Below are positions 1,954 through 18,803 of a stretch of 64,000 nucleotides of DNA, piece by piece (position 1 is the stretch's first letter; each line of letters starts with the position of its first letter). The position numbers were made by a program, and so were the translations under genes. Under the pieces are notes generated by a model. It was not told the DNA's origin and searched no databases. It was given only the letters and a program-made list of their open reading frames with translations. Source of the DNA: Flavobacterium sp. SUN052 (lineage in GTDB: Bacteria; Bacteroidota; Bacteroidia; Flavobacteriales; Flavobacteriaceae); the NCBI RefSeq assembly GCF_028867935.1, contig NZ_JAPQNS010000004.1:248001-312000 (forward strand), given 5' to 3'.

Positions 1954-2892
1954 ATGACACCTGTTCCTGAATCGTTCATTATTCTGTGGTCGACACCGCT
2001 GTATGCATTGGTTATTGGTATCGAAATGATACTAAGCCATTGGCAGCATCGGCATTTGTATTCGTTTTGGGGGGTGGTGCAAAACCTATACCTGACTATT
2101 CTCAATGCAAGTCTCGATCTGCTGGTGCGTGGGTTGTACGTAGGAGTGCTGCTCTTCGTCTATACCTACCGCGTGGGTGAAATCTCCGACCCGTGGTTTT
2201 ACTGGGCAGCCCTGGTAGTACTCGAAGATTTTATGTTTTACTGGCTCCACCGATTCGACCATGTTTGTCGGTTGTTCTGGGCCGTTCACGTTACCCATCA
2301 CTCCTCCGAAGAGTTTAACCTGACTACCGGCTTCCGCTCGTCGGTGTTTCAGCCCTTGTATCGGTTCATCTATTTTGTTCCGCTAGCTTGGTTTGGTTTT
2401 CGGGCCGAAGACATTTTACTGACTTATTCGGCAACCCAGATTTGGGGTATTTTGGTCCACACACAGTACATAGGCAAACTAGGGGTTTTAGAATGGTTTA
2501 TGGTCACACCCTCGCACCATCGGGTACACCATGCTTCCAATATTCAGTACCTTGATCGGAATATGGGTATGTTTCTGATTATCTGGGATCGGCTGTTTGG
2601 CACTTTTGCCGAAGAAGATCCCAACGAGCCGGTACGGTACGGTTTAACCACCAATCTGACCAGTCAATCGCCGGGAAATCTGATTTTTCATGAGTGGAAA
2701 AAATTGGGAGAAGACCTTCGGAAACCTGGCCCACTAAGTCAAAAAGTCAATTATTTGCTTCAGCCGCCCGGTTGGAGTCACGACGGGAGTAGTCAAACTG
2801 CCGAGCAGATGCGCCAGGGGGGAAACACCTCAAACCAAGCCTCTTTGACGAATCACCAAAATGTAGTATTTTCCCCAGAGTTGACTGAGTAA
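1954..2892 (+). CDS. Sterol desaturase / fatty acid hydroxylase family membrane protein
   Basis: This is a 312-residue integral membrane di-iron oxygenase. The histidine clusters that bind the two irons are all present: H99-RFD-H103, H112-VT-HH116 and HHRVHH (188-193). Hydrophobic segments precede and separate the clusters. The C-terminal ~50 residues after the catalytic domain are polar, Ser/Gln/Asn-rich and probably disordered. Known for the family: O2-dependent hydroxylation or desaturation of lipids, sterols or carotenoids. The substrate cannot be read from the sequence. The gene stands alone between proA and the CotH locus, with 47 and 62 bases on either side, so an operon with its neighbours is possible but not evident. 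Confidence 0.88.
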   Translation: MTPVPESFIILWSTPLYALVIGIEMILSHWQHRHLYSFWGVVQNLYLTILNASLDLLVRGLYVGVLLFVYTYRVGEISDPWFYWAALVVLEDFMFYWLHRFDHVCRLFWAVHVTHHSSEEFNLTTGFRSSVFQPLYRFIYFVPLAWFGFRAEDILLTYSATQIWGILVHTQYIGKLGVLEWFMVTPSHHRVHHASNIQYLDRNMGMFLIIWDRLFGTFAEEDPNEPVRYGLTTNLTSQSPGNLIFHEWKKLGEDLRKPGPLSQKVNYLLQPPGWSHDGSSQTAEQMRQGGNTSNQASLTNHQNVVFSPELTE

Positions 2893-2954
2893 TTGCAACG
2901 CTGGTGAGCCGATCGGCGTAGTCAATTATAACCATTGCGACACCCCGATTTGCC

Positions 2955-4358
2955 ATGAACCAGAATCGTTTACTTACCCTTGCAGTCACGCTGCTATGGA
3001 TTGGCGTATCCTGTCAGCCCAAAATCGTTGATCCGGCAACCGTATCTGTGACAGCTAATCCTGACTGGACCGAAGCTTCGCACAGTAATAAGGCCACTCC
3101 CGATTACACGGTAGTATTTCCGCAAGACAAAGTCAATACGTTGGAAATTACCATGACCGCAGCGGAGTGGCAGTCTGTAATGACCGACATGACGGCTAAG
3201 TTTGGTGGTAGCTTCGGGGCGGGTGGCACTACACCTGGGGGAGCTGTTCCGGGTGGAGCGGGGAATTTTGGAACGGCCGAGCCCAATTATATTGCTTTGC
3301 CAGTGACGTTTAACGGGAAAGCTTGGAAAAAGGTAGGCTTCCGGCTCAAGGGAAACTCCAGCTTGTCGTCGGCCTGGCGTGGTGGTACGTATAAACTTCC
3401 CTTTCGGCTGAATTTCGATGAGTTCGAAGATACATTTCCTGAAATTAAAGATCAGCGGTTTTATGGCTTCAAAGAGCTGTCCATGTCGCCTGCTTTTGGG
3501 GATGCTTCGCTGATTCGCGAAAAGGTGGCGGCCGACATTTTTCGGCAGGCGGGGGTTCCGGCCGCTCAAACAGCCTTTTATAAAGTGTACATCAACTTTG
3601 GCGCTGGCCGGAAATACTGCGGTATTTATACAATGGTTGAAGTGATCGACGACACCATGGTGGAAAGTCAGTTTGCTGATAAAAAAGGAAATATCTACAA
3701 GCCTGAGTCTAGTTTCCTGACATTTACCCAGACGCAGTTCGAAAAGAAAAACAACAAAACGGAGGCCGATTACTCCGATGTGCAAGCGTTTATTACAGCC
3801 CTTAACAGCAGCGACCGGACAACAAACCGGGCTCTCTGGCGGACCAATCTGGAGAAGACGTTCAATATTGATCACTATCTGAAGTTCCTGGCCGTAAACA
3901 ACACCATTGTCAACTGGGATACCTACGGGTCAATGGCCCACAACTATTACTTCTATACTGCCCCCGATAAACGGATCGTGTGGATTCCGTGGGACCATAA
4001 CGAAGCCCTAAAAACCACAGCTGGAGCGGGTGGAGGTATTGCCAGGGCAGTGTCGCTGCCCATGACCGAAGTGACGGCTGCCTGGCCTTTGCTTAAGTAC
4101 GTAGCCGAAGATCCTGTGTACATGGCGAAATACAAGCAAAGTGTGAAAACATTTGCCGAAACGGTGTTTACTGCTACGGCCATGAACGCACTGGTTGAGC
4201 GGAATCATGCCCTCATTGCGCCCTTTGTAACCGGTACCGAAACGGAGCAAAAACCCTATTCGTATCTGGCTTCGCCTGCTGAGTTCACCAACGCTTTAGC
4301 CACTCTGAAAACACATATTGCCTCTCGGAATCAGGCAGCCGCCGACTTCACGAAATAA
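2955..4358 (+). CDS. CotH-type protein kinase family lipoprotein
   Basis: A 467-residue exported protein. The N-terminus is a lipoprotein signal with lipobox VSC (Cys20), so it is probably membrane-anchored outside the cytoplasm. Residues ~50-400 have the CotH pattern: a GNSS..W..KLPFRLNFDEF block, a GFKELSM..D..LIREKVA block, YCGIYTMVEVID, GNIYKPE, and WIPWDHNEAL with Asp347 in the expected metal/catalytic region. Between the first strands lies a Gly/Pro-rich low-complexity stretch (about 84-107), a frequent linker in this family. Known: Bacillus CotH is an atypical secreted protein kinase of spore coat proteins; Bacteroidota members are not characterised. It heads a three-gene unit with a DUF4956 membrane protein and a DUF2490 outer-membrane protein. 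Confidence 0.88.
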   Translation: MNQNRLLTLAVTLLWIGVSCQPKIVDPATVSVTANPDWTEASHSNKATPDYTVVFPQDKVNTLEITMTAAEWQSVMTDMTAKFGGSFGAGGTTPGGAVPGGAGNFGTAEPNYIALPVTFNGKAWKKVGFRLKGNSSLSSAWRGGTYKLPFRLNFDEFEDTFPEIKDQRFYGFKELSMSPAFGDASLIREKVAADIFRQAGVPAAQTAFYKVYINFGAGRKYCGIYTMVEVIDDTMVESQFADKKGNIYKPESSFLTFTQTQFEKKNNKTEADYSDVQAFITALNSSDRTTNRALWRTNLEKTFNIDHYLKFLAVNNTIVNWDTYGSMAHNYYFYTAPDKRIVWIPWDHNEALKTTAGAGGGIARAVSLPMTEVTAAWPLLKYVAEDPVYMAKYKQSVKTFAETVFTATAMNALVERNHALIAPFVTGTETEQKPYSYLASPAEFTNALATLKTHIASRNQAAADFTK

Positions 4359-4377
4359 CGCATCGACACCTCCCCTC

Positions 4378-5061
4378 ATGATTTTACTCCAACAGGCGGC
4401 TAACCCCGCTATACTCGACGGTTTTGCATCTATGGCTCTTTTCTCGTTCGACTTGCTGCTTCGCTTTGGCGTTGATGCAGCGACAGTTGCCGTGCTGATT
4501 CGGCTGATTTATTACCGGATTTACCGAAAGTCAGCGCTGTTTGTGACATTTTTCGCCTTCAACCTGACTATATTTCTCGTTACCTATATGCTGCATCAAG
4601 TGCAGATGTCTATGGGGGCTGCATTTGGTTTATTCGCCGTGTTCTCGATGCTTCGGTTCCGTACCGAGGGTATTTCGATAAAGGATATGACCTATCTGTT
4701 TGTCGTCATTTCCATTGGTTTGATCTCAGCAATTTGCGAAGTAGGAACGGAGTACGGAGGCTGGGTAGGGGCGGCTCTGCTCAATAGCCTGATTGTGGGT
4801 GTTGTGTACGTGTTGGAAAGCGACTGGTTTGTGCGTCGGGAATCAAGCAAAACTATTTACTACGACCGTACTGATCTGCTTCGCCCCGAACATGCCCTCA
4901 ATTTACTGGACGATTTGCGAGCTCGTACGGGGCTTTGGATATACCGGGTTGAGGTACGGGACATTGATTTTCGGAAAGACTGTGCCCAACTGACTGTCTA
5001 TTATCATGAAAACACTAGGCAACCCGTTCAGGCGGCTAAAGAAGTGATCAGCTACCGATAA
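4378..5061 (+). CDS. DUF4956 domain membrane protein
   Basis: The protein has 227 residues from the ATG at 4378. A longer reading from 4318 would overlap the CotH gene by 41 bases and add a polar, non-conserved N-terminus, so it is not favoured. About four hydrophobic segments occupy residues ~20-150, followed by a soluble C-terminal domain with the pattern YYDRTDLL...LLDDLRARTG..IYRVEVRDIDF, typical of DUF4956. Family members are commonly found next to CotH kinases or VTC-type polyphosphate polymerases (established context); only CotH is present here. The role is unknown; a membrane partner of the CotH protein is an inference. The next gene starts 14 bases downstream. Confidence 0.85.
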   Translation: MILLQQAANPAILDGFASMALFSFDLLLRFGVDAATVAVLIRLIYYRIYRKSALFVTFFAFNLTIFLVTYMLHQVQMSMGAAFGLFAVFSMLRFRTEGISIKDMTYLFVVISIGLISAICEVGTEYGGWVGAALLNSLIVGVVYVLESDWFVRRESSKTIYYDRTDLLRPEHALNLLDDLRARTGLWIYRVEVRDIDFRKDCAQLTVYYHENTRQPVQAAKEVISYR

Positions 5062-10230: not shown

Positions 10231-10344
10231 CCTAAGATTACGGGAAATGCGTGTTAAGGCTTTTATGGGGATTTGTTACCTTTAAAAATGGGCCTGATTT
10301 TTCGGGCCTGTCATGCCTCCCTAAAGTCATATACTCTTCGTTTA

Positions 10345-12057
10345 ATGAGTCTAAAAACTTCTGATAGCTCAAACCCCGCGCTGCCTATTTTATCCAAAGC
10401 ACCAACAGGAATTGCCGGATTGGATGAAATAACGGGTGGAGGTTTACCAAAAGGTCGGCCAACACTTATTTGTGGGAGTGCAGGTTGTGGAAAAACCCTG
10501 TTCTCTCTTGAGTTCATTGTACGTGGCGCTATGCAGTTCAATGAACCAGGCGTTTTTATGGCGTTTGAGGAAAAAACCGACGAGCTGGTAATTAATGTGG
10601 CTTCGCTGGGTTTCGATCTGAAACAGTTACAGGCTGATAAACTCGTCCGCTTAGACCACGTTCACATCGAACGCCACGAAATTGAAGAGACCGGTGAATA
10701 TGACCTGGAAGGTCTGTTTATTCGGTTGGGACACGCCATCGATAGCATCGGTGCTAAGCGGGTTGTGCTGGATACCATCGAAAACCTGTTTTCCGGCTTA
10801 TTAAATCAAGGCGTACTGCGAGCTGAAATCCGTCGGCTTTTTGAGTGGCTCAAAAGTAAAGGCGTCACTACCATCATTACGGGTGAAAAAGGCGATGGGA
10901 CCTTGACTCGCTATGGTCTTGAAGAGTACGTATCGGATTGCGTTATTTTGCTTGACCACCGGGTAAGCAACCAGATTTCAACTCGGTTGTTGCGTGTCGT
11001 GAAGTACCGTGGGTCCATGCACGGTACAAATGAGTATCCCTTTCTGATTGATGCTCAGGGTATTTCGGTCTTGCCGGTTACATCGCTGACGTTAGATAGC
11101 CCGGTTTCGTCGGATCGTGTTTCGTCTGGAATAGCGTCTCTGGATAAGATGCTGGATAATAAAGGCTTTTACCGGGGTAGCAGTATTCTTGTTTCTGGAA
11201 CGGCTGGAACGGGTAAAACCAGTATCGCTGCCAGCTTCGCGAATGAAATCTGCCGACGCGGTGAACGGTGTGTGTTTTTCGCTTTTGAAGAATCACCCCA
11301 GCAGATTTGCCGCAATATGCAATCAATTGGAATGAACCTTCAAGACCACGTTAATGCAGGTTTATTACAGTTTCATGCCTCTAGGCCTACCCTTAACGGG
11401 TTAGAAATGCATTTGGTCGCTATTCATAAGATTGTCAAAAACTTCAGGCCACATGCCGTAGTATTGGACCCTATTACCAATCTGGTTACGGTGGGTTCGA
11501 TGAGCGAAGTAAAGTCGATGTTGATTCGCCTGATTGATTTCTTACAGACTGAACAAATAACGGTGATGTTTACGGCTCTGTCGTTGAATACTGTCATTCA
11601 CGAACAAACCGATGAAGGTGTATCGTCGCTGGTCGATGCGTGGTTGTCGGTAAAGGATATTGAGTTTAATGGGGAGCGTAACCGGGGATTGTACGTCATG
11701 AAATCGCGGGGAATGAAACATTCGAATCAGGTTCGGGAGTTTGTTATTACCAACCACGGTCTCGATTTGGTCGACGTTTATCTAGGACCGGAAGGTGTTC
11801 TGACGGGTTCGGCCCGCGAGGCTCAACAATTACAGTATGAAACGGGCGTGGCGCTGCGCGATCATGCTGTAGGTCGGAAAGATCGTGAGATTGAGCGGAA
11901 GCGTACCGTATTAGAAGCTCGAATTGCCAGTTTGCGCGAAGAATTTGAATCTGTTCAGGAAGATCTGAATCGGAGTTATGTGGAGGAGGAGCTGCGCAAT
12001 GAAGTGATGGAAAAAAACCGCGCCCTGATGACTCGGAGTCGGCATAACGAAGAATAA
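10345..12057 (+). CDS. kaiC: KaiC-like RecA-family ATPase/kinase
   Basis: The protein has 570 residues from the ATG at 10345. Starts at 10273 (TTG) and 10288 (ATG) are possible but add a non-KaiC tail. Two RecA-like domains are visible: CI with Walker A GSAGCGKT (44-51) and the catalytic Glu pair E75-E76, and CII with GTAGTGKT (285-292) and E315-E316. The CII stretch T422-D-E-G-V-S427-S428 aligns with cyanobacterial T426...S431-T432, so both phospho-acceptor positions keep hydroxyl residues. After ~490 the cyanobacterial A-loop/KaiA-binding tail is replaced by a Glu/Arg-rich coiled coil of ~75 residues. The gene heads kaiC-kaiB-kaiB-kinase-receiver with no kaiA. Likely role: ATP-driven timer or state switch feeding a phosphorelay (inference). 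Confidence 0.93.
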   Translation: MSLKTSDSSNPALPILSKAPTGIAGLDEITGGGLPKGRPTLICGSAGCGKTLFSLEFIVRGAMQFNEPGVFMAFEEKTDELVINVASLGFDLKQLQADKLVRLDHVHIERHEIEETGEYDLEGLFIRLGHAIDSIGAKRVVLDTIENLFSGLLNQGVLRAEIRRLFEWLKSKGVTTIITGEKGDGTLTRYGLEEYVSDCVILLDHRVSNQISTRLLRVVKYRGSMHGTNEYPFLIDAQGISVLPVTSLTLDSPVSSDRVSSGIASLDKMLDNKGFYRGSSILVSGTAGTGKTSIAASFANEICRRGERCVFFAFEESPQQICRNMQSIGMNLQDHVNAGLLQFHASRPTLNGLEMHLVAIHKIVKNFRPHAVVLDPITNLVTVGSMSEVKSMLIRLIDFLQTEQITVMFTALSLNTVIHEQTDEGVSSLVDAWLSVKDIEFNGERNRGLYVMKSRGMKHSNQVREFVITNHGLDLVDVYLGPEGVLTGSAREAQQLQYETGVALRDHAVGRKDREIERKRTVLEARIASLREEFESVQEDLNRSYVEEELRNEVMEKNRALMTRSRHNEE

Positions 12058-12060
12058 ACG

Positions 12061-12113
12061 AGAGCGGTCTGTAAGCCGCTCGTAGACAGATGGGCGGCTT
12101 TACAAACCGCTCT
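12061..12113 (+). promoter_or_regulatory. Stem-loop between kaiC and kaiB
   Basis: Arms 12061-12079 and 12094-12113 pair along ~19 bases with one mismatch and one bulge around a 14-base loop. It begins three bases after the kaiC stop and ends seven bases before the first kaiB ATG. There is no T-run after it (TATATATA follows). It may act as a processing or stability element that sets the KaiC:KaiB ratio, or be a copy of a dispersed palindromic repeat. Confidence 0.6.
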
Positions 12114-12119
12114 ATATAT

Positions 12120-12413
12120 ATGGTAGAAGAACAGGAAATGTGGGAGCTGCGGCTCTATGTGGCGGGCAACACCCCCCGGTCTTTGACGGCACTGGCAAAC
12201 TTGAAAAAGTACTGTGAAGCGCACTTAAAAGGGCAGTATAAAATTGAAGTGATTGACCTGTTGGTGCATCCGCAATTAGCTGAGGGTGATCAAATTCTGG
12301 CCATTCCTACATTGGTCAAAAAAGTACCGGAACCCATTCGTAAAATTATTGGCGATTTATCGAATGAAGAAAAAGTTTTGGTTGGATTGAACATCCGCCC
12401 TGCTACCAATTGA
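12120..12413 (+). CDS. kaiB: KaiB family protein, copy 1
   Basis: The protein has 97 residues from the ATG at 12120. A longer reading from 12090 would start inside the stem-loop and is rejected. The sequence follows cyanobacterial KaiB closely: [19 protein letters not shown], a [24 protein letters not shown] block and [16 protein letters not shown]. Known for KaiB: a thioredoxin-like, fold-switching protein that binds phosphorylated KaiC and, in cyanobacteria, sequesters KaiA and regulates output kinases. No KaiA is encoded here, so its role is probably to tie KaiC state to the adjacent kinase (inference). The gene stops one base before the second kaiB starts, indicating co-transcription. Confidence 0.93.
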
Positions 12414-12414
12414 A

Positions 12415-12717
12415 ATGAGCGAACAGGCTGAAACACTCGATGAAAGTAAACCGTATGTGTTGCGCTTGTTTATAACAGGAGCCTCGCTGAATTCTGTGCG
12501 AGCGGTCACTAATCTGAAGCAAATTTGCGAAGAACATTTGGAAGGGAATTATTCGCTTGAAATAATTGATGTGCATCAACAGCGCGAAATTGCCCAGATT
12601 GAACAGTTAATTGCTTTGCCGCTGTTGGTAAAGCTGTTTCCGCTTCCTGAACGACGCTTGATCGGCGATCTGTCGGAAACGAAGCGGGTATTATCAGGAT
12701 TAGGTATTACCCCGTAA
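12415..12717 (+). CDS. KaiB family protein, copy 2 (divergent)
   Basis: The 100-residue product shares the KaiB frame (VLRLFITGASLNSVRAVTNL, IIDVHQQREIAQIEQLIALP, RRLIGDLSETKRVL) but is more diverged than copy 1. The usual YVAGNTP is FITGASL and the NPQLAE-like loop is QQREIAQ. It starts one base after the first kaiB stop and ends two bases before the kinase ATG. A pair of KaiB proteins with different surfaces suggests one for KaiC and one for the kinase or a second conformer, but this is inference. The conserved GDLS near the C-terminus argues it is a functional KaiB fold rather than a decaying copy. Confidence 0.88.
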   Translation: MSEQAETLDESKPYVLRLFITGASLNSVRAVTNLKQICEEHLEGNYSLEIIDVHQQREIAQIEQLIALPLLVKLFPLPERRLIGDLSETKRVLSGLGITP

Positions 12718-12719
12718 CA

Positions 12720-13994
12720 ATGTCTGTTAACCCGTCCAAGACATACGATCAGCTTTTGGCTGAGAACGAACGCCTGAGCCGGCAATTAGAAGAAGCCACG
12801 GAGACGATTTATGCGATCCGGACAGGGCAAGTTGACGCGCTGATAGTACAGGGTAAAGACGGCCATGAACTCTATACCCTTAAAACCGCTGACCACACCT
12901 ACCGGGTATTCATTGAAACCATGAATGAAGGGGCAGTCACGCTCAATAGCGATGGCCTGATTGTTTATTCTAACTCCATGTTTGCGTCGATGGTGGGTAA
13001 ACCTCTATCATCCGTTATTGGTATGTCGTTCAGAACATTTGTACCACCAGAGTCCGAAACAGCCTTTGGTGATTTGTTTCGTATGGGTTGGACAGAAGAC
13101 AATAAAATTGAATTGTTTATTGCAGGGGCTCATGGCTTAATACCCTGTCAGCTTTCGGTTAATGCGCTTGAGCTCAACGACGGTGTTTCGCTGAGTATGA
13201 TTCTGACTGATCTGACGGTACAGAAGGAGAACCAGCGGCTGTTAGAAATCAATAATGAACAACTAGCCCAGACTAACGCAGCGCTGGAGGTTAGTAATCA
13301 CGATTTATTGCAGTTTGCATCGGTGGCTTCACATGATTTACAGGAGCCGCTTCGGAAGATTCTGATCTTTGCCAAGATGCTAAAAGATAGGCATACTAGT
13401 GAGCTGCCAGCCGATAGTGTGAGGTATCTGGAGAAAATTATCGATTCGTCAAACCGGATGAAGACGATGATCGTAGATATTTTGACGTACTCGCGCTTAT
13501 CCACAAATGATGACCGATTCGTGCCAACCAATCTGCACGATATTGTAACTGATGTCATCAGCGATTTCGATTTGGTTATCAGCGATAAAAAGGCAGTGGT
13601 ACGTATTGAAAATCTACCAACGGTCGATGTCAATCCAGGGCAAATGCGTCAGGTTTTTCAAAACCTCATCAGTAACGCGATGAAGTTTAGTAGGCCCGAC
13701 ATTGTTCCTGAATTAGTCATTAGTGGTGGCATCGAGCGGAGAAACGAGTCAGGTCAGGAGCCACATTACTATATTAAGATCGCTGACAATGGAATTGGCT
13801 TTGATGATCAATATGCGGAAAAAGTGTTTTCGTTATTTCACCGGTTGAACACCAAAGACGCGTACGAGGGATCAGGAATTGGATTGGCTATCACAAAGCG
13901 GATTATCGACCGGCATCACGGTACGGTTAGCGCACAAAGTGAAGAGGGAAAAGGGTCCGTATTTATAATTAAGTTACCTTTACGTAAACACTAA
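12720..13994 (+). CDS. PAS-domain sensor histidine kinase of the Kai operon
   Basis: A 424-residue soluble kinase with no membrane segment. It starts with a short coiled coil (LLAENERLSRQLEEATE) and an IRTGQVDALIVQ linker, then a PAS domain (~60-175), a second short coiled coil, the dimerisation/phosphotransfer helix with His205 in SHDLQEPLRK, and HATPase_c with QNLISNAMKF, DNGIGFDD and GSGIGLAI. The start lies two bases after the second kaiB stop. The start of the N-terminus resembles the segment found in PAS kinases that accompany KaiC in non-cyanobacteria. Position suggests it reads KaiB/KaiC state and phosphorylates the single-domain receivers that follow (inference). Confidence 0.9.
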   Translation: MSVNPSKTYDQLLAENERLSRQLEEATETIYAIRTGQVDALIVQGKDGHELYTLKTADHTYRVFIETMNEGAVTLNSDGLIVYSNSMFASMVGKPLSSVIGMSFRTFVPPESETAFGDLFRMGWTEDNKIELFIAGAHGLIPCQLSVNALELNDGVSLSMILTDLTVQKENQRLLEINNEQLAQTNAALEVSNHDLLQFASVASHDLQEPLRKILIFAKMLKDRHTSELPADSVRYLEKIIDSSNRMKTMIVDILTYSRLSTNDDRFVPTNLHDIVTDVISDFDLVISDKKAVVRIENLPTVDVNPGQMRQVFQNLISNAMKFSRPDIVPELVISGGIERRNESGQEPHYYIKIADNGIGFDDQYAEKVFSLFHRLNTKDAYEGSGIGLAITKRIIDRHHGTVSAQSEEGKGSVFIIKLPLRKH

Positions 13995-14006
13995 TTAGGG
14001 AAAAGA

Positions 14007-14414
14007 ATGAGTAGTCAGCTCAAACGAAAAATATTATTGGCGGAAGATGACAGTGACGATGCCTTTTTCTTCTTCGATTTTCTTCACAACCGTGCTGATG
14101 TTGATCTCCTTCCAAGCGTATCAAACGGTGTTGAAGTGATTGATTATTTGAATAATGTTTCTTCGGACGATGAGTTGCCCGACGTTATTGTGCTTGATCA
14201 GAACATGCCTAAACTATCGGGTCGGGAAACACTCGATTACATCAAGTCGAACGAAAAGTACGGCAACATTGCTGTTGCCATCTATTCAACGTATGTAGGG
14301 CCACAACTGGCCGAAGAATGTCTGAAATTGGGAGCCGCTTTAGTCGAAACCAAACCAATTTCAAAAGAAGGCTATAACAAAATGCTGGATACTATATTAG
14401 AAGTTGTAGGCTAA
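14007..14414 (+). CDS. Single-domain response regulator (receiver only), copy 1
   Basis: A 135-residue receiver domain with no output domain. Acidic pocket residues E13/D14/D15 (LAEDDSDDAF), phospho-acceptor Asp64 (VLDQNMP) and Lys116 (ETKPIS) are in their expected places. It starts 12 bases after the kinase gene, so it is the natural first acceptor of that kinase. As a stand-alone receiver it could relay phosphate or act through protein binding. The Asn-rich FFFFDFLHNR helix 1 is common in Bacteroidota single-domain receivers. A 187-base A+T-rich gap follows, which may hold the promoter of the next gene. Confidence 0.92.
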   Translation: MSSQLKRKILLAEDDSDDAFFFFDFLHNRADVDLLPSVSNGVEVIDYLNNVSSDDELPDVIVLDQNMPKLSGRETLDYIKSNEKYGNIAVAIYSTYVGPQLAEECLKLGAALVETKPISKEGYNKMLDTILEVVG

Positions 14415-14566
14415 GTACCTATTTATATTCTAAAGTGATACAATTGAATATTAGAAAAGTTGCTAAAATAGAAAAGATTTTACTTAAGCTGCTTATTATA
14501 TAAAATGTGACCAAAGTCTTCTGTTGAAGTAATATTAAACAGTTCTAGCTGTAATATTAGTCGTAG

Positions 14567-14597
14567 ATTGCGGTACATGCTTTATATACTATAGTTG
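14567..14597 (+). promoter_or_regulatory. Candidate promoter (ATTG-N19-TATAGTTG) for the second receiver gene
   Basis: ATTG (14567-14570) is followed after 19 bases by TATAGTTG (14590-14597), seven of eight matches to TAnnTTTG. The box ends four bases before the ATG at 14602, so transcription would begin at or next to the start codon. The same geometry is seen at three other genes in this window. Confidence 0.4.
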
Positions 14598-14601
14598 GCA
14601 A

Positions 14602-15054
14602 ATGGAAACCAGCAAGCTTCAGCTCCTTCTTGCCGACGATGATGAGGATGACTGCCTCTTTTTTAAGCAGGCCTTATCAGAATTATCTGTAGCGACTTCC
14701 CTGACTACAGTGCACGATGGTGAGCAGCTCATGCAGCTACTCACAAAAAAAACGGGTATGCTTCCTAGTGTTCTATTCCTCGACCTTAATATGCCGCGCA
14801 AAAACGGCTTTGAATGTTTGGCGGAAATAAATCAAGACGATACCCTGCGGCAGCTACCTGTGGTAATACTCTCTACCTCATTTGATGAGGCTATGACGAA
14901 CCGATTGTACAAGAATGGGGTACATTACTGCATCAAAAAACCGAATGAATTTGTCAAACTCAAACGGGTACTTCAGCAGATAATTACCCTGATTGTTGAT
15001 ACTGATTTTGCACGGCCAGTAGCCGAAAGTTTTGTGCTTGAAGCAGATTCATAA
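14602..15054 (+). CDS. Single-domain response regulator (receiver only), copy 2
   Basis: A 150-residue receiver domain. The acidic pocket is ADDDEDD (11-17), the phospho-acceptor is Asp61 (FLDLNMPRKNGF) and the conserved Lys is in IKKP (112-113). About 25 residues trail after the domain without a recognisable output motif. This type (FLDLNMP, response regulator rcp1-like) is typical of receivers acting with phytochrome-like or PAS kinases. It is followed after 11 bases by the CheB-CheR hybrid kinase, so the two are probably co-transcribed. A promoter with a very short or absent leader lies directly upstream. Confidence 0.92.
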   Translation: METSKLQLLLADDDEDDCLFFKQALSELSVATSLTTVHDGEQLMQLLTKKTGMLPSVLFLDLNMPRKNGFECLAEINQDDTLRQLPVVILSTSFDEAMTNRLYKNGVHYCIKKPNEFVKLKRVLQQIITLIVDTDFARPVAESFVLEADS

Positions 15055-15065
15055 ACGAGCTAACC

Positions 15066-18000
15066 ATGAGCGAAGGCCAAAAAACGTTGTCCCCTAACTT
15101 GTTTCCCGTAGTTGGCGTTGGAGCTTCGGCAGGTGGTTTAGACGCCTTTAAAAAACTGCTTGAAGCTATTCCCGAAAATTCGGGAATGGCTTATGTGTTG
15201 GTGCAGCACTTATCGCCCATCCACGAAAGTATTCTACCCGAACTGCTTCAAAAAGTTACGTCTATTCCAGTATTGGAAATAGCGGATGAGATCAAAGTAG
15301 AGCCTGATCACATCTATATTCTACCCAGCAACAAAATGTTGGTGGCCAACGACGGGATCTTACAGCTGAGCCCCCGCACCACAAAAAAAAATGAGCCAAA
15401 TCTGCCCATAGACCTTTTTTTTACGTCATTGGCCGAGGTCCATCAAAGTGGTGCTATTGGTGTGGTACTGTCGGGAACGGGTAGTGATGGCACCAAAGGG
15501 CTAAAAGCGATCAAAGAGTATGGGGGTATTACGATTGCGCAGGATGAAATGTCGGCTGGGTATGATGGTATGCCTAAAAGCGCCATACAAGCCGGCGTAG
15601 TGGATTTTATTCTTCCACCTGAGCAGATTCCCCAAAAACTATTAGAAATAGCGGGCATTTTCAATCAGCATATCAACACAGAATCGTCCCTCCAGGCCCA
15701 GGCTAATGATGCTTTCCGGCAAATGCTTGCATTGTTGCGCATCCGCAAGGGAACTGACTTCACGTATTACAAACAAACCACAATCCGTCGGCGAATACTG
15801 CGCCGAATGGCCATCAATAAAAGCGATCAGCCTGTCGATTATCTTACCTATTTGCGGGACAATAAGATAGAACAGGATGCGCTATATCAGGACCTGTTGA
15901 TTCCGGTAACCTCGTTTTTTCGGGATCCAAAAACCTTTTCTACGCTATGCGATACGATTTTTCCGCTCATCATAAGAAACAAATCAGCTAGTGAGCCAAT
16001 ACGTGTATGGGTAACCGGTTGTAGCACCGGCGAAGAAGCTTACTCGATGGCAATATGCTTTAAGGAGTTTTTGGGGGAGGACCGGGAACGAGTTCAACTG
16101 TTTGCCAGTGATCTAAGCGAACCCGCTATTGCCAAAGCACGTACTGCCATTTATACAAAATCTGAAGTTGAAGGGGTATCACCACAGCGGTTACAGGAAT
16201 TCTTTATAAAAACCAATGGGAGTTATCAGGTGAATAAGCAAGTGCGGGATATGTGCGTATTTGCCCGCCATAATTTTCTAAAAGACCCACCCTTTGGAAA
16301 AATAGATTTTATAAGCTGTCGTAACGTACTAATTTACATGGAGCCCTATCTGCAAAAGAAAGCTCTCACGACTTTTCATTATGCATTGAACCCCAATGGC
16401 TTTTTATTATTAGGTAAATCTGAAACAATAAGTGGCGTCCCTGAACTTTTCGCTTCAGCCGTAAAAACCGAGAAACTATTTACTCGTAAAGATGTACCCG
16501 GCCGGTTTATGCTTTTGGCAAGTGAACGAAGTGAATTACCTGTAGTCTCGGTAAAAACCGATCCTAAAACCGAAACTATGCGTGCTGATTTTCAGAAGAC
16601 AGCTGATGATATAATTCTAAGTAAGTACACACCTGTTGGGGTGGTCGTAAATGAGGGCTTGGATATTGTTCATTTTCGCGGTAGTACCAGCAATTTTTTA
16701 GAACAATTGTCGGGGAAACCCACACATAATTTATTGCTGATGGCAAAATATGGGTTGGCTTTTGAGCTACGTAATATTTTACATAAAGCAAAAAAACAGA
16801 AAGCAGCCGTAATAAAAGAAAATATTCCTGTACTCATAAATGATGTTCAACGTATTATTTCGCTCGAAGCTATTCCGTTGCTCAATACCATTGAACCACA
16901 CTATTTAGTTCTTTTCCACGAAAAGAATCAAGTGGGTAATATGGCGATAACTGGTAGTTCTAAAAAAGCAACAGTTTCAAAGTCAAACAAGGATAACAAA
17001 GACCTTCGCATACACCAGCTTGAGCAGGAACTAGATCAAACTAGGGAAGATATGCGGAGTATTACCGAAGATCAGGAAGCAGTAAACGAAGAACTACAAA
17101 GCGCCAACGAAGAACTCCTAAGCGGGAGCGAAGAGTTGCAAAGCCTGAACGAAGAACTTGAAACAAGTAAGGAAGAGCAACAAAGTACCAACGAAGAATT
17201 GATGGCTGTGAATCAGGAAATCACGAACCTGAATGAGCAAGTAATAGCCTCACGCGATTATGCTGAAGCAATTATTGGCAACATTCGCCAGCCCTTGCTA
17301 GTGTTGGATAAAAACTTGCGGATAAAAACGGCTAACAGCACATTTTACCAAGCATTTCAGGTAAAAGAGCCTGAAACAGAAGGCTTTCTTATTTATGACC
17401 TGGGTAACAAACAGTGGAATATCCCTGAGCTGCGAACATTACTTGAAAAAATTCTTCCAGAAAAATCCGCATTCAACGATTTTGCCATAACCTACACGTT
17501 TCCAGTAATTGGTGAGCGGGTAATGTTGTTAAATGCCCGCGAACTGGTAAACAAGAACAGTTCAGAGAAATTAATTTTGCTGTCAATTGAAGATATTACA
17601 GATAAAGCGAAAGCGCAGGAGAAAGAAAAAAAAGCTGAGAAGCGCTTTCAATTTATTGCTGATGCTATGCCACAAAAAGTATGGACAGCCGATGCAATAG
17701 GAAATGTTAATTATTTAAGTCAGCATTGGTTCAGTTATACGGGATTATCTTTTGATGAATTAAAAGACTGGGGCTGGGAAAAAATAGTTCATCCACTCGA
17801 CCTGACTGAATATAAACAACGCTGGCAAAAATCTATTGATACCGGTACTGATTTCGAAATGGAGAATAGGCTTTTAGATTGGCAGGGAAACTATATGTGG
17901 TATCTCAGCCGATGGTCAGCTCAGAAAGATAAGCGTGGTGTTGTTGAAATGTGGGTAGGTACCAATACGGAAATTCATAAACAGAGAAAGCAAAAAGAAG

Positions 18001-18803
18001 CGCTGGAAAAAGCAGTAGGAGAGCGGACAGTTGAGCTAGAGGAAGCTAACGAAACACTTGAAAATAAAAACTCAGCCCTTCTGAAAATGAATAATGAACT
18101 TGAATCATTTACCTATATATCGAGCCATGATTTACAGGAGCCCCTGCGTAAAATACAAACACTGGCTGGTCGAATACTCGAAAAGGAAAGCCAGAATTTA
18201 ACTGAAAACGGTAAAGATTATTTTTTGCGATTGCAGGGGGCTGCCGAACGGATGCAGCAACTTATTCAGGATTTACTGGCCTTCTCCCGTGTAAATACAA
18301 CAGAACGGAAATTTGAAGACACGGATCTTAATACAATTACGAATGAGGTGCTTAGTGAGCTGGACGAAGCTATTCAGGAAAAACACGCTACTATAGAGGT
18401 TATATGCCTCGGATCTGCCAAGATCATTGTATTTCAGTTTCGTCAACTGATGCAAAACCTTGTCGGAAACGCGCTTAAATTCACCGATGTTGCTAAACCT
18501 CCGCATATTATAATAAGGAGCGGGGTTGAGTTAGGAAGAGAGTCGACTAACAAAAATTTATTACCCGACAAGAACTATTGCCACATCTCTGTCAGCGATA
18601 ATGGTATTGGGTTTGAACCCAAATATAGCGAACGGATTTTTGGGGTATTTCAACGGCTAAACGGTAGAAATCAATATAGAGGTACTGGAATTGGTCTGGC
18701 AATTGTGAAAAAGATAGTCGAGAACCATAAAGGGTTTATTACCGCTACCAGCAAGCTTCATAAAGGAGCTACGTTCGATATATATATTCCTGCTGATGAA
18801 TAA
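15066..18803 (+). CDS. CheB-CheR-PAS-histidine kinase hybrid protein
   Basis: A 1245-residue cytosolic fusion. CheB methylesterase domain (~12-195): triad Ser21 (GASAGG), His48 (VQHLSP), Asp141 (GTGSDGT), all present. CheR domain (~215-475): N-terminal TTIRRRILRRM, SAM-binding VWVTGCSTGEEAYS (314-327) and CRNVLIYM (418-425). A Glu/Gln/Asn-rich coiled coil follows (~645-725), then two PAS-like regions (~735-850 and ~860-975), a phosphotransfer helix with the His of SSHDLQEPLRK (~1019) and HATPase_c with QNLVGNALKF, DNGIGF and GTGIGLAIV. No receiver or membrane domain was seen. No chemotaxis receptor or cheA is nearby, so methylation of a receptor in cis is doubtful. It closes the Kai-associated signalling block. 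Confidence 0.92.
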   Translation: MSEGQKTLSPNLFPVVGVGASAGGLDAFKKLLEAIPENSGMAYVLVQHLSPIHESILPELLQKVTSIPVLEIADEIKVEPDHIYILPSNKMLVANDGILQLSPRTTKKNEPNLPIDLFFTSLAEVHQSGAIGVVLSGTGSDGTKGLKAIKEYGGITIAQDEMSAGYDGMPKSAIQAGVVDFILPPEQIPQKLLEIAGIFNQHINTESSLQAQANDAFRQMLALLRIRKGTDFTYYKQTTIRRRILRRMAINKSDQPVDYLTYLRDNKIEQDALYQDLLIPVTSFFRDPKTFSTLCDTIFPLIIRNKSASEPIRVWVTGCSTGEEAYSMAICFKEFLGEDRERVQLFASDLSEPAIAKARTAIYTKSEVEGVSPQRLQEFFIKTNGSYQVNKQVRDMCVFARHNFLKDPPFGKIDFISCRNVLIYMEPYLQKKALTTFHYALNPNGFLLLGKSETISGVPELFASAVKTEKLFTRKDVPGRFMLLASERSELPVVSVKTDPKTETMRADFQKTADDIILSKYTPVGVVVNEGLDIVHFRGSTSNFLEQLSGKPTHNLLLMAKYGLAFELRNILHKAKKQKAAVIKENIPVLINDVQRIISLEAIPLLNTIEPHYLVLFHEKNQVGNMAITGSSKKATVSKSNKDNKDLRIHQLEQELDQTREDMRSITEDQEAVNEELQSANEELLSGSEELQSLNEELETSKEEQQSTNEELMAVNQEITNLNEQVIASRDYAEAIIGNIRQPLLVLDKNLRIKTANSTFYQAFQVKEPETEGFLIYDLGNKQWNIPELRTLLEKILPEKSAFNDFAITYTFPVIGERVMLLNARELVNKNSSEKLILLSIEDITDKAKAQEKEKKAEKRFQFIADAMPQKVWTADAIGNVNYLSQHWFSYTGLSFDELKDWGWEKIVHPLDLTEYKQRWQKSIDTGTDFEMENRLLDWQGNYMWYLSRWSAQKDKRGVVEMWVGTNTEIHKQRKQKEALEKAVGERTVELEEANETLENKNSALLKMNNELESFTYISSHDLQEPLRKIQTLAGRILEKESQNLTENGKDYFLRLQGAAERMQQLIQDLLAFSRVNTTERKFEDTDLNTITNEVLSELDEAIQEKHATIEVICLGSAKIIVFQFRQLMQNLVGNALKFTDVAKPPHIIIRSGVELGRESTNKNLLPDKNYCHISVSDNGIGFEPKYSERIFGVFQRLNGRNQYRGTGIGLAIVKKIVENHKGFITATSKLHKGATFDIYIPADE

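Follow-up and report, generated by a model that had tools for sequence, protein, structure and literature searches.

What does a bacterium without KaiA do with a KaiC, and how many of the genes around that KaiC work with it? The question is raised by a 64,000-nt window from the genome deposited as Flavobacterium sp. SUN052 (contig NZ_JAPQNS010000004.1), in which seven plus-strand open reading frames (ORFs) at 10345-18803 encode KaiC, two KaiBs, a sensor histidine kinase, two receiver-only proteins and a protein with CheB, CheR and kinase domains. A preliminary description, made from the DNA alone, took them for one seven-gene module; ORF and Pfam domain calls agree with it that all seven are present with the domains it named. 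We consider it fairly probable that the locus is a KaiA-independent, Rhodobacter sphaeroides-type KaiBC timer with its own sensor kinase, most likely a timer of the hourglass type that follows energy state. The genes of the operon in question are as follows (kaiB1 and kaiB2 are positional names).

10345-12057, plus strand: kaiC, 570 amino acids, two KaiC/RecA domains and a C-terminal helical tail, assigned to the R. sphaeroides type
12120-12413 (ORF open from 12090), plus strand: kaiB1, 97 amino acids, PF07689 at 94.3 bits
12415-12717, plus strand: kaiB2, 100 amino acids, PF07689 at 81.5 bits
12720-13994, plus strand: kai-operon sensor kinase, 424 amino acids, N-terminal helix motif, PAS, HisKA and HATPase_c
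14007-14414, plus strand: receiver 1, receiver domain (PF00072) only, optional fifth gene of the operon and possible phosphate acceptor

The kai operon and its KaiC

The loci compared were drawn from the best 80 of 129 Bacteroidota KaiC relatives and 54 further stretches, some of them from the same organisms; 133 had a strong KaiC match (126 after removal of identical KaiC segments), and as they were picked by KaiC similarity the counts describe close relatives. The order kaiC-kaiB1-kaiB2-kinase is the same in all 124 non-redundant loci with enough sequence, the kinase gene starting no more than 15 bases past kaiB2 or overlapping it. Two loci fall outside this count: L046, where the contig stops after the second kaiB, and L219, which has a different KaiC. 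The conserved unit is kaiC-kaiB1-kaiB2-kinase, sometimes with a receiver. A receiver lies directly 3' of the kinase in 14/124 loci, 13 of the 14 belonging to the receiver 1 family, and a receiver-only gene lies directly 5' of kaiC in 23/124 (L025, L048, L193 and 20 others; Dyadobacter and relatives), most of these upstream receivers resembling receiver 2 more than receiver 1, as if the operon had gained receivers several times at one end or the other. In six loci with the kai operon and receiver 1 (L175, L178, L179, L180, L187 and L196) we noted by eye a following gene of about 680 amino acids resembling a GlgE-type maltosyltransferase, and also a gene for a receiver protein whose start resembles LytTR.

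The conserved core and the absence of KaiA from the genome bear out the earlier suggestion that this is one of the KaiB-KaiC-kinase clusters found in other bacteria. That two KaiBs are in themselves unusual does not hold, as two are present in 124/124 loci and in 19/27 loci of a wider phylum sample (8 have one; at least genome G297 is shared with the first set). Non-cyanobacterial kaiC usually adjoins a kinase gene (PMC3164672), and kaiC-B-PAS/HK operons occur in purple bacteria (PMC4794148); the operon type is therefore already known. Kai genes have been noted in mat-dwelling non-phototrophic Bacteroidota and Pseudomonadota (PMC10173096), and Bacteroidetes are stated to hold only KaiB2/KaiC2 types (PMC5520375, in that paper's own naming, which is distinct from the positional names used here).

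The taxonomic label of the genome seems to be wrong. The phosphoglycerate kinase (PGK) encoded in the window is 92% identical to that of Fibrella rubiginis, 90% to that of F. aquatilis and 85–87% to those of six Spirosoma, compared to 57–60% for five genomes labelled as the same genus or family (59–60% for the three labelled as the same genus). We have therefore treated the host as Fibrella-like (Spirosomataceae), and the family counts given below refer to 200 genomes of that family, as indicated by PGK.

The KaiC and KaiB matches are much stronger than chance would give. The best curated match of KaiC is NF006799 (744.9 bits), and KaiC falls below the cut-off of TIGR02655 (342.8 vs 546.25). 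Its nearest solved structures are those of R. sphaeroides (8dba, 8fwi and 8db3, 607–626 bits, 8dba at 626), compared to 312–366 bits for the other full-length solved KaiCs, and the phmmer alignment to 8dba extends through the C-terminal coil. In an alignment of 134 sequences (the window and the 133 loci, some near-identical) the Walker A lysines 50 and 291 and the catalytic glutamates 75, 76, 315 and 316 are kept in 134/134, the predicted phosphosites S427 and S428 in 131 and 134 respectively, and the long C-terminal tail in 133. The genome encodes one KaiC and two KaiBs, both at this locus; KaiA (PF07688) was not found in it by a search which, among 14 control genomes, matched Synechococcus elongatus only. 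With no KaiA found, the locus does not fit a cyanobacterial KaiABC oscillator. By these sequence criteria the KaiC is of the KaiA-independent R. sphaeroides type. The KaiC of R. sphaeroides itself forms a dodecamer with a coil and autophosphorylates without KaiA, in a system termed an hourglass by its authors (PMC10076222).

Two KaiB lineages

KaiB1 and KaiB2 form separate supported groups in the tree (99/94 and 97/86). AlphaFold2 gives KaiB1 the ground topology, with ground-state KaiB crystals as its top structural matches, and KaiB2 a fold-switched, thioredoxin-like topology, with top matches to 4kun (Lpp1115, the Legionella pneumophila KaiB solved in the fold-switched state) and to other fold-switched KaiBs. 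The KaiB2 profile is also closer than the KaiB1 profile to Lpp1115 and to the SasA sensor. Against these fold assignments, pLDDT values of 70.7 and 75.3 put both models at medium confidence, and the AlphaFold2 training set reportedly, according to the title of one paper, powers some fold-switched predictions.

The residues involved are known from R. sphaeroides KaiB, which is flipped to the fold-switched state, as checked by nuclear magnetic resonance, by I68R and V83D together with a substitution of N84, given once as N84R and elsewhere as N84A, in a paper that also describes some KaiBs, including a Legionella KaiB and KaiB-TV4, as fold-switched (PMC10808063). In R. sphaeroides numbering, and counting Ala and Cys as hydrophobic, positions 68 and 83 are hydrophobic in 120/120 KaiB1, while KaiB2 is polar at both in 102/124, at one or more in 123/124 and hydrophobic at both in a single sequence; the window KaiB2 has E and S. 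Position 84 is mostly Gly in both lineages. R. sphaeroides KaiB has Ile, Val or Leu at 29 positions, of which only 68 and 83 are always hydrophobic in KaiB1 and hydrophobic in less than 15% of KaiB2. The phylum sample is similar for first KaiBs, which are hydrophobic at both positions in 19/19, and for single KaiBs (7/8), while of the 19 second KaiBs 13 are polar at both positions, three at position 83 only and three at neither. KaiB1 and KaiB2 differ, then, at positions that help to flip the KaiB fold in the laboratory. We predict that KaiB1 is a metamorphic-type KaiB in the ground fold, and KaiB2 is probably locked in the fold-switched, thioredoxin-like fold, a point on which structure prediction, profile comparison and residues agree.

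It is unlikely, in our estimate, that KaiB2 is instead a normal fold-switching KaiB, retained for reasons of dosage or to form heteromers. Such a protein would be expected to look as KaiB2 does in some respects: G73 and S76 are conserved, the switching prolines are kept (P58 in 124, P65 in 123 and P67 in 110 of 124), so that KaiB2 may still switch, and both key positions are hydrophobic in the one KaiB2 and three phylum second KaiBs mentioned above. It would not be expected to form a supported group of its own, to be polar at one or both key positions in all but one of 124 sequences, or to resemble fold-switched Lpp1115 most closely in its model and, more than KaiB1 does, Lpp1115 and the SasA sensor in its profile.

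The same prolines bear on whether the system keeps time at all. An energy or stress-state switch without timing, in which KaiC would follow ATP:ADP at once and the kinase would report it, is a considerable possibility, though one we lean against. In R. sphaeroides the ATP:ADP ratio drives the system, and KaiC autophosphorylates within half an hour (PMC10076222); the title of a Legionella kai-operon paper implies a role in stress. However, three prolines slow the KaiB fold switch (PMC11551320), and each of these slow-isomerising residues is kept in KaiB1 in 120/120, as expected if the slow step has been selected.

The kinase front end and a proposed mechanism

The kinase begins with a helix motif, EEA..TI.AIR.G.VDALVV, followed by PAS, and residues 1-167, which span both, were used as the front-end query. 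The family genomes contain 64 matches, one per genome (weakest E 1.9e-49), and 63 of these 64 genomes have KaiC (Fisher p 1.7e-48, uncorrected for the relatedness of the genomes). Only two KaiC genomes are without the front end (G350 and G428), both with a divergent KaiC. The single match without KaiC (G419, locus L256, 5206-7018) consists of a receiver, the C-terminal half of kaiB2 and the kinase; no kaiC or complete kaiB1 turned up in the 12.5 kb retrieved, and to judge from these remnants the locus is a decayed kai operon. In the phylum sample (395 genomes, G297 being in both samples) 27/27 front-end matches lie beside kaiC and kaiB. The R. sphaeroides kinase front end occurs in 13 of 72,556 plasmid records, nine of them from Cereibacter, and these are exactly the records with a KaiC of at least 52% identity; it was not found in three other plasmid KaiC records (35–37% identity).

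The catalytic part is less constant. Of 129 kinases compared, all show PAS, in some cases weakly, and in all but that of Aquisphaera (128) the N-terminal motif was detected. The Bacteroidota kinases scanned have a HisKA catalytic part, those of Cereibacter and Falsirhodobacter an HWE part, and that of Pararhizobium HisKA together with a receiver. Judged by this linkage, the front end appears nearly exclusive to the kaiBC system, and the simplest reading is that it reads the Kai complex. Since the front end goes with kaiBC in all three samples even as the catalytic class changes, the link is directly testable. The kinase of KaiA-less kaiBC operons is described as a neighbour in PMC4794148 and PMC3164672, and as a candidate input in PMC5520375. 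We also considered SasA proper, which does not fit this protein, as the KaiB-like sensor domain (PF07689) was not found in the kinase chain by Pfam, nor in the 120 listed of 7998 homologues.

The direction of the signal could be the reverse. If the kinase were an input device, its PAS domain would sense redox or another signal and the kinase would set KaiC or KaiB; this role is suggested for the R. sphaeroides operon kinase in PMC5520375, where it is an input to KaiBC and not an output, and the front end does contain PAS. We think it doubtful that this applies here, because the kinase has complete HisKA and HATPase domains and receivers adjoin the operon on its 3' side in 14 and on its 5' side in 23 of 124 loci, as in ordinary kinase-to-receiver output. 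Nor do we know of any phosphate acceptor for a histidine kinase in KaiC or KaiB. The output to single-domain receivers proposed in the preliminary description is plausible as far as a kinase-to-receiver step, but the CheB-CheR kinase as the end of the chain is unsupported.

Known systems each share part of this arrangement. The R. sphaeroides (Cereibacter) KaiBC-RS hourglass has the same KaiC type, SS phosphosites, C-terminal coil and lack of KaiA, a KaiB of the KaiB1 lineage, and a kaiC-kaiB-PAS/HWE kinase operon with the same front-end motif; it differs in having one KaiB rather than two and an HWE rather than a HisKA kinase, and the R. sphaeroides KD131 plasmid record has no receiver gene annotated directly after the kinase. 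Plasmid p3 of Pararhizobium qamdonense has the order kaiC-kaiB-kaiB-kinase and the same kinase front end, with a KaiB1-like first KaiB and a second that scores slightly better as KaiB2 (107.0 vs 99.2 bits), although that second KaiB falls outside the Bacteroidota KaiB2 tree group and the kinase carries a receiver in the same chain. Cyanobacterial KaiABC-SasA is alike in its KaiC and KaiB families, in a thioredoxin-like KaiB-type module and in a histidine kinase, and the window-type kinase is, like SasA, tied to KaiC genomes (63/64, 27/27, 13/13), but the window genome has no KaiA and its kinase no KaiB-like domain. Our additions are a front end that stays nearly exclusive to kaiBC while the kinase class varies, and two KaiBs paired in different predicted states; neither the difference in kind between the KaiBs nor the near-specific front end figured in the preliminary description. 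We found no description of a switching and locked KaiB pairing in the open-licence literature searched. Having a switching KaiB encoded next to one that is probably locked offers a natural comparison for the tuning of a metamorphic protein.

The mechanism we propose is modelled on R. sphaeroides, and in it we infer the fold states in solution, KaiC binding, competition, signal direction, phosphotransfer and timing. By this analogy the KaiC tail would hold the A-loop open, with autophosphorylation on S427/S428 at high ATP:ADP, and KaiB1 would switch fold slowly, bind the CI ring and drive ATP hydrolysis and dephosphorylation, so that the state of KaiC would report both energy state and elapsed time. 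For KaiB2, if the thioredoxin-like fold keeps it ready to bind, no slow step should be needed, and its role may be to compete with KaiB1 or to tag KaiC rings that are phosphorylated. Reading of the KaiC-KaiB complex would fall to the N-terminal/PAS part of the kinase, and HisKA would hand phosphate to receiver 1 where the receiver 1 gene exists.

Several observations count against this proposal. Receiver 1 is missing from most loci. KaiC was found in 65/200 family genomes and not found in 135, which makes the system accessory, and three loci with the kinase front end carry a KaiC without the coil. In 8/27 phylum loci and in R. sphaeroides one KaiB was detected with the same kinase front end; the kinase must therefore be able to work with KaiC in the absence of KaiB2.

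A more ambitious version, which we offer tentatively and would not expect to hold in full, is that the operon amounts to SasA split into two genes. The locked KaiB2 would dock on KaiC at once and serve in trans as a SasA-type sensor for the kinase, KaiB1 would be the slow fold-switching timer subunit, competition between locked and switching KaiB would decide when the kinase is on, and the front end would serve generally for reading KaiC, having been coupled by bacteria to kinases of different classes.

Receiver 2, the CheB-CheR kinase and details of the locus

The remaining two genes are as follows.

14602-15054, plus strand: receiver 2, receiver domain only, putative first gene of a separate two-gene unit outside the kai core
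15066-18803, plus strand: CheB-CheR-PAS-PAS-HisKA-HATPase protein without a receiver domain, putative second gene of that unit

Strong relatives of the CheB-CheR kinase occur in at least 87/200 family genomes, and 11 of the 12 orthologues whose loci were fetched (at least 62% identity) have a receiver-2-like gene immediately upstream, the exception being L112. In those 11 genomes, KaiC was not found in eight, lies on another contig in two and is about 2 Mb away in one. No CheB or CheR ORF above 30 bits was present in the flanks (up to 10 kb) of 80 loci (best 80 of 129), two Fibrella species included. Elsewhere, L175, L178, L179 and L180 encode a CheB-CheR protein on the opposite strand, roughly 4 kb after receiver 1 (split over two ORFs in L178); three of the four are 44–46% identical to the window protein, and we therefore assign these flanking proteins to another subfamily. 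A lone CheB-type methylesterase directly follows a divergent KaiC in two separate assemblies, L111 and L219 (in the latter at 2449-4679), the KaiC being 52% identical and, in L219, short in the tail; this is a different KaiC pairing.

A single signalling chain of all seven genes, with phosphate passing via both receivers to the CheB-CheR kinase, would suit the common strand and the 11-base gap between receiver 2 and the CheB-CheR kinase, and CheB-family genes do occur near KaiC in the four flanking cases and the two KaiC-CheB pairs. We consider it very improbable nonetheless: CheB/CheR ORFs flank none of the 80 loci, the 11 closest receiver-CheB-CheR pairs sit mostly in genomes where KaiC was not found, a 187-base gap precedes receiver 2, and the four flanking proteins are of the other subfamily and strand. 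The search for the same seven-gene order in other Bacteroidota, which the preliminary description had recommended as a check, recovered the four-gene core, with receiver 1 as an occasional fifth gene, and its module ending in the CheB-CheR kinase is not co-conserved. From these gene neighbourhoods, receiver 2 and the CheB-CheR kinase are best described as a separate pair, neighbours of the kai operon, and the CheB-CheR kinase looks unrelated to it. Since it has no receiver domain in the Pfam scan, it is also not the 'hybrid' kinase it had been called.

From kaiC to the CheB-CheR kinase the intergenic gaps are 32 (to the ORF start at 12090), 1, 2, 12, 187 and 11 bases; the spacing reported earlier contained one extra '1'. 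The gap between kaiC and kaiB1 is 62 bases if kaiB1 starts at its second ATG, at 12120, and relatives with a 97-amino-acid KaiB1 begin at the equivalent place. The kaiC frame stays open as far upstream as a TTG at 10273, while the longest kaiC ORF in several relatives (L004, L005, L008 and others) begins at the residue aligned with the ATG at 10345. Within the kaiC-kaiB1 gap, at 12062-12112, two adjacent G+C-rich inverted repeats were read by eye; the second spans the first possible KaiB1 start and thus favours the ATG at 12120, and the repeats might affect the KaiC:KaiB ratio.

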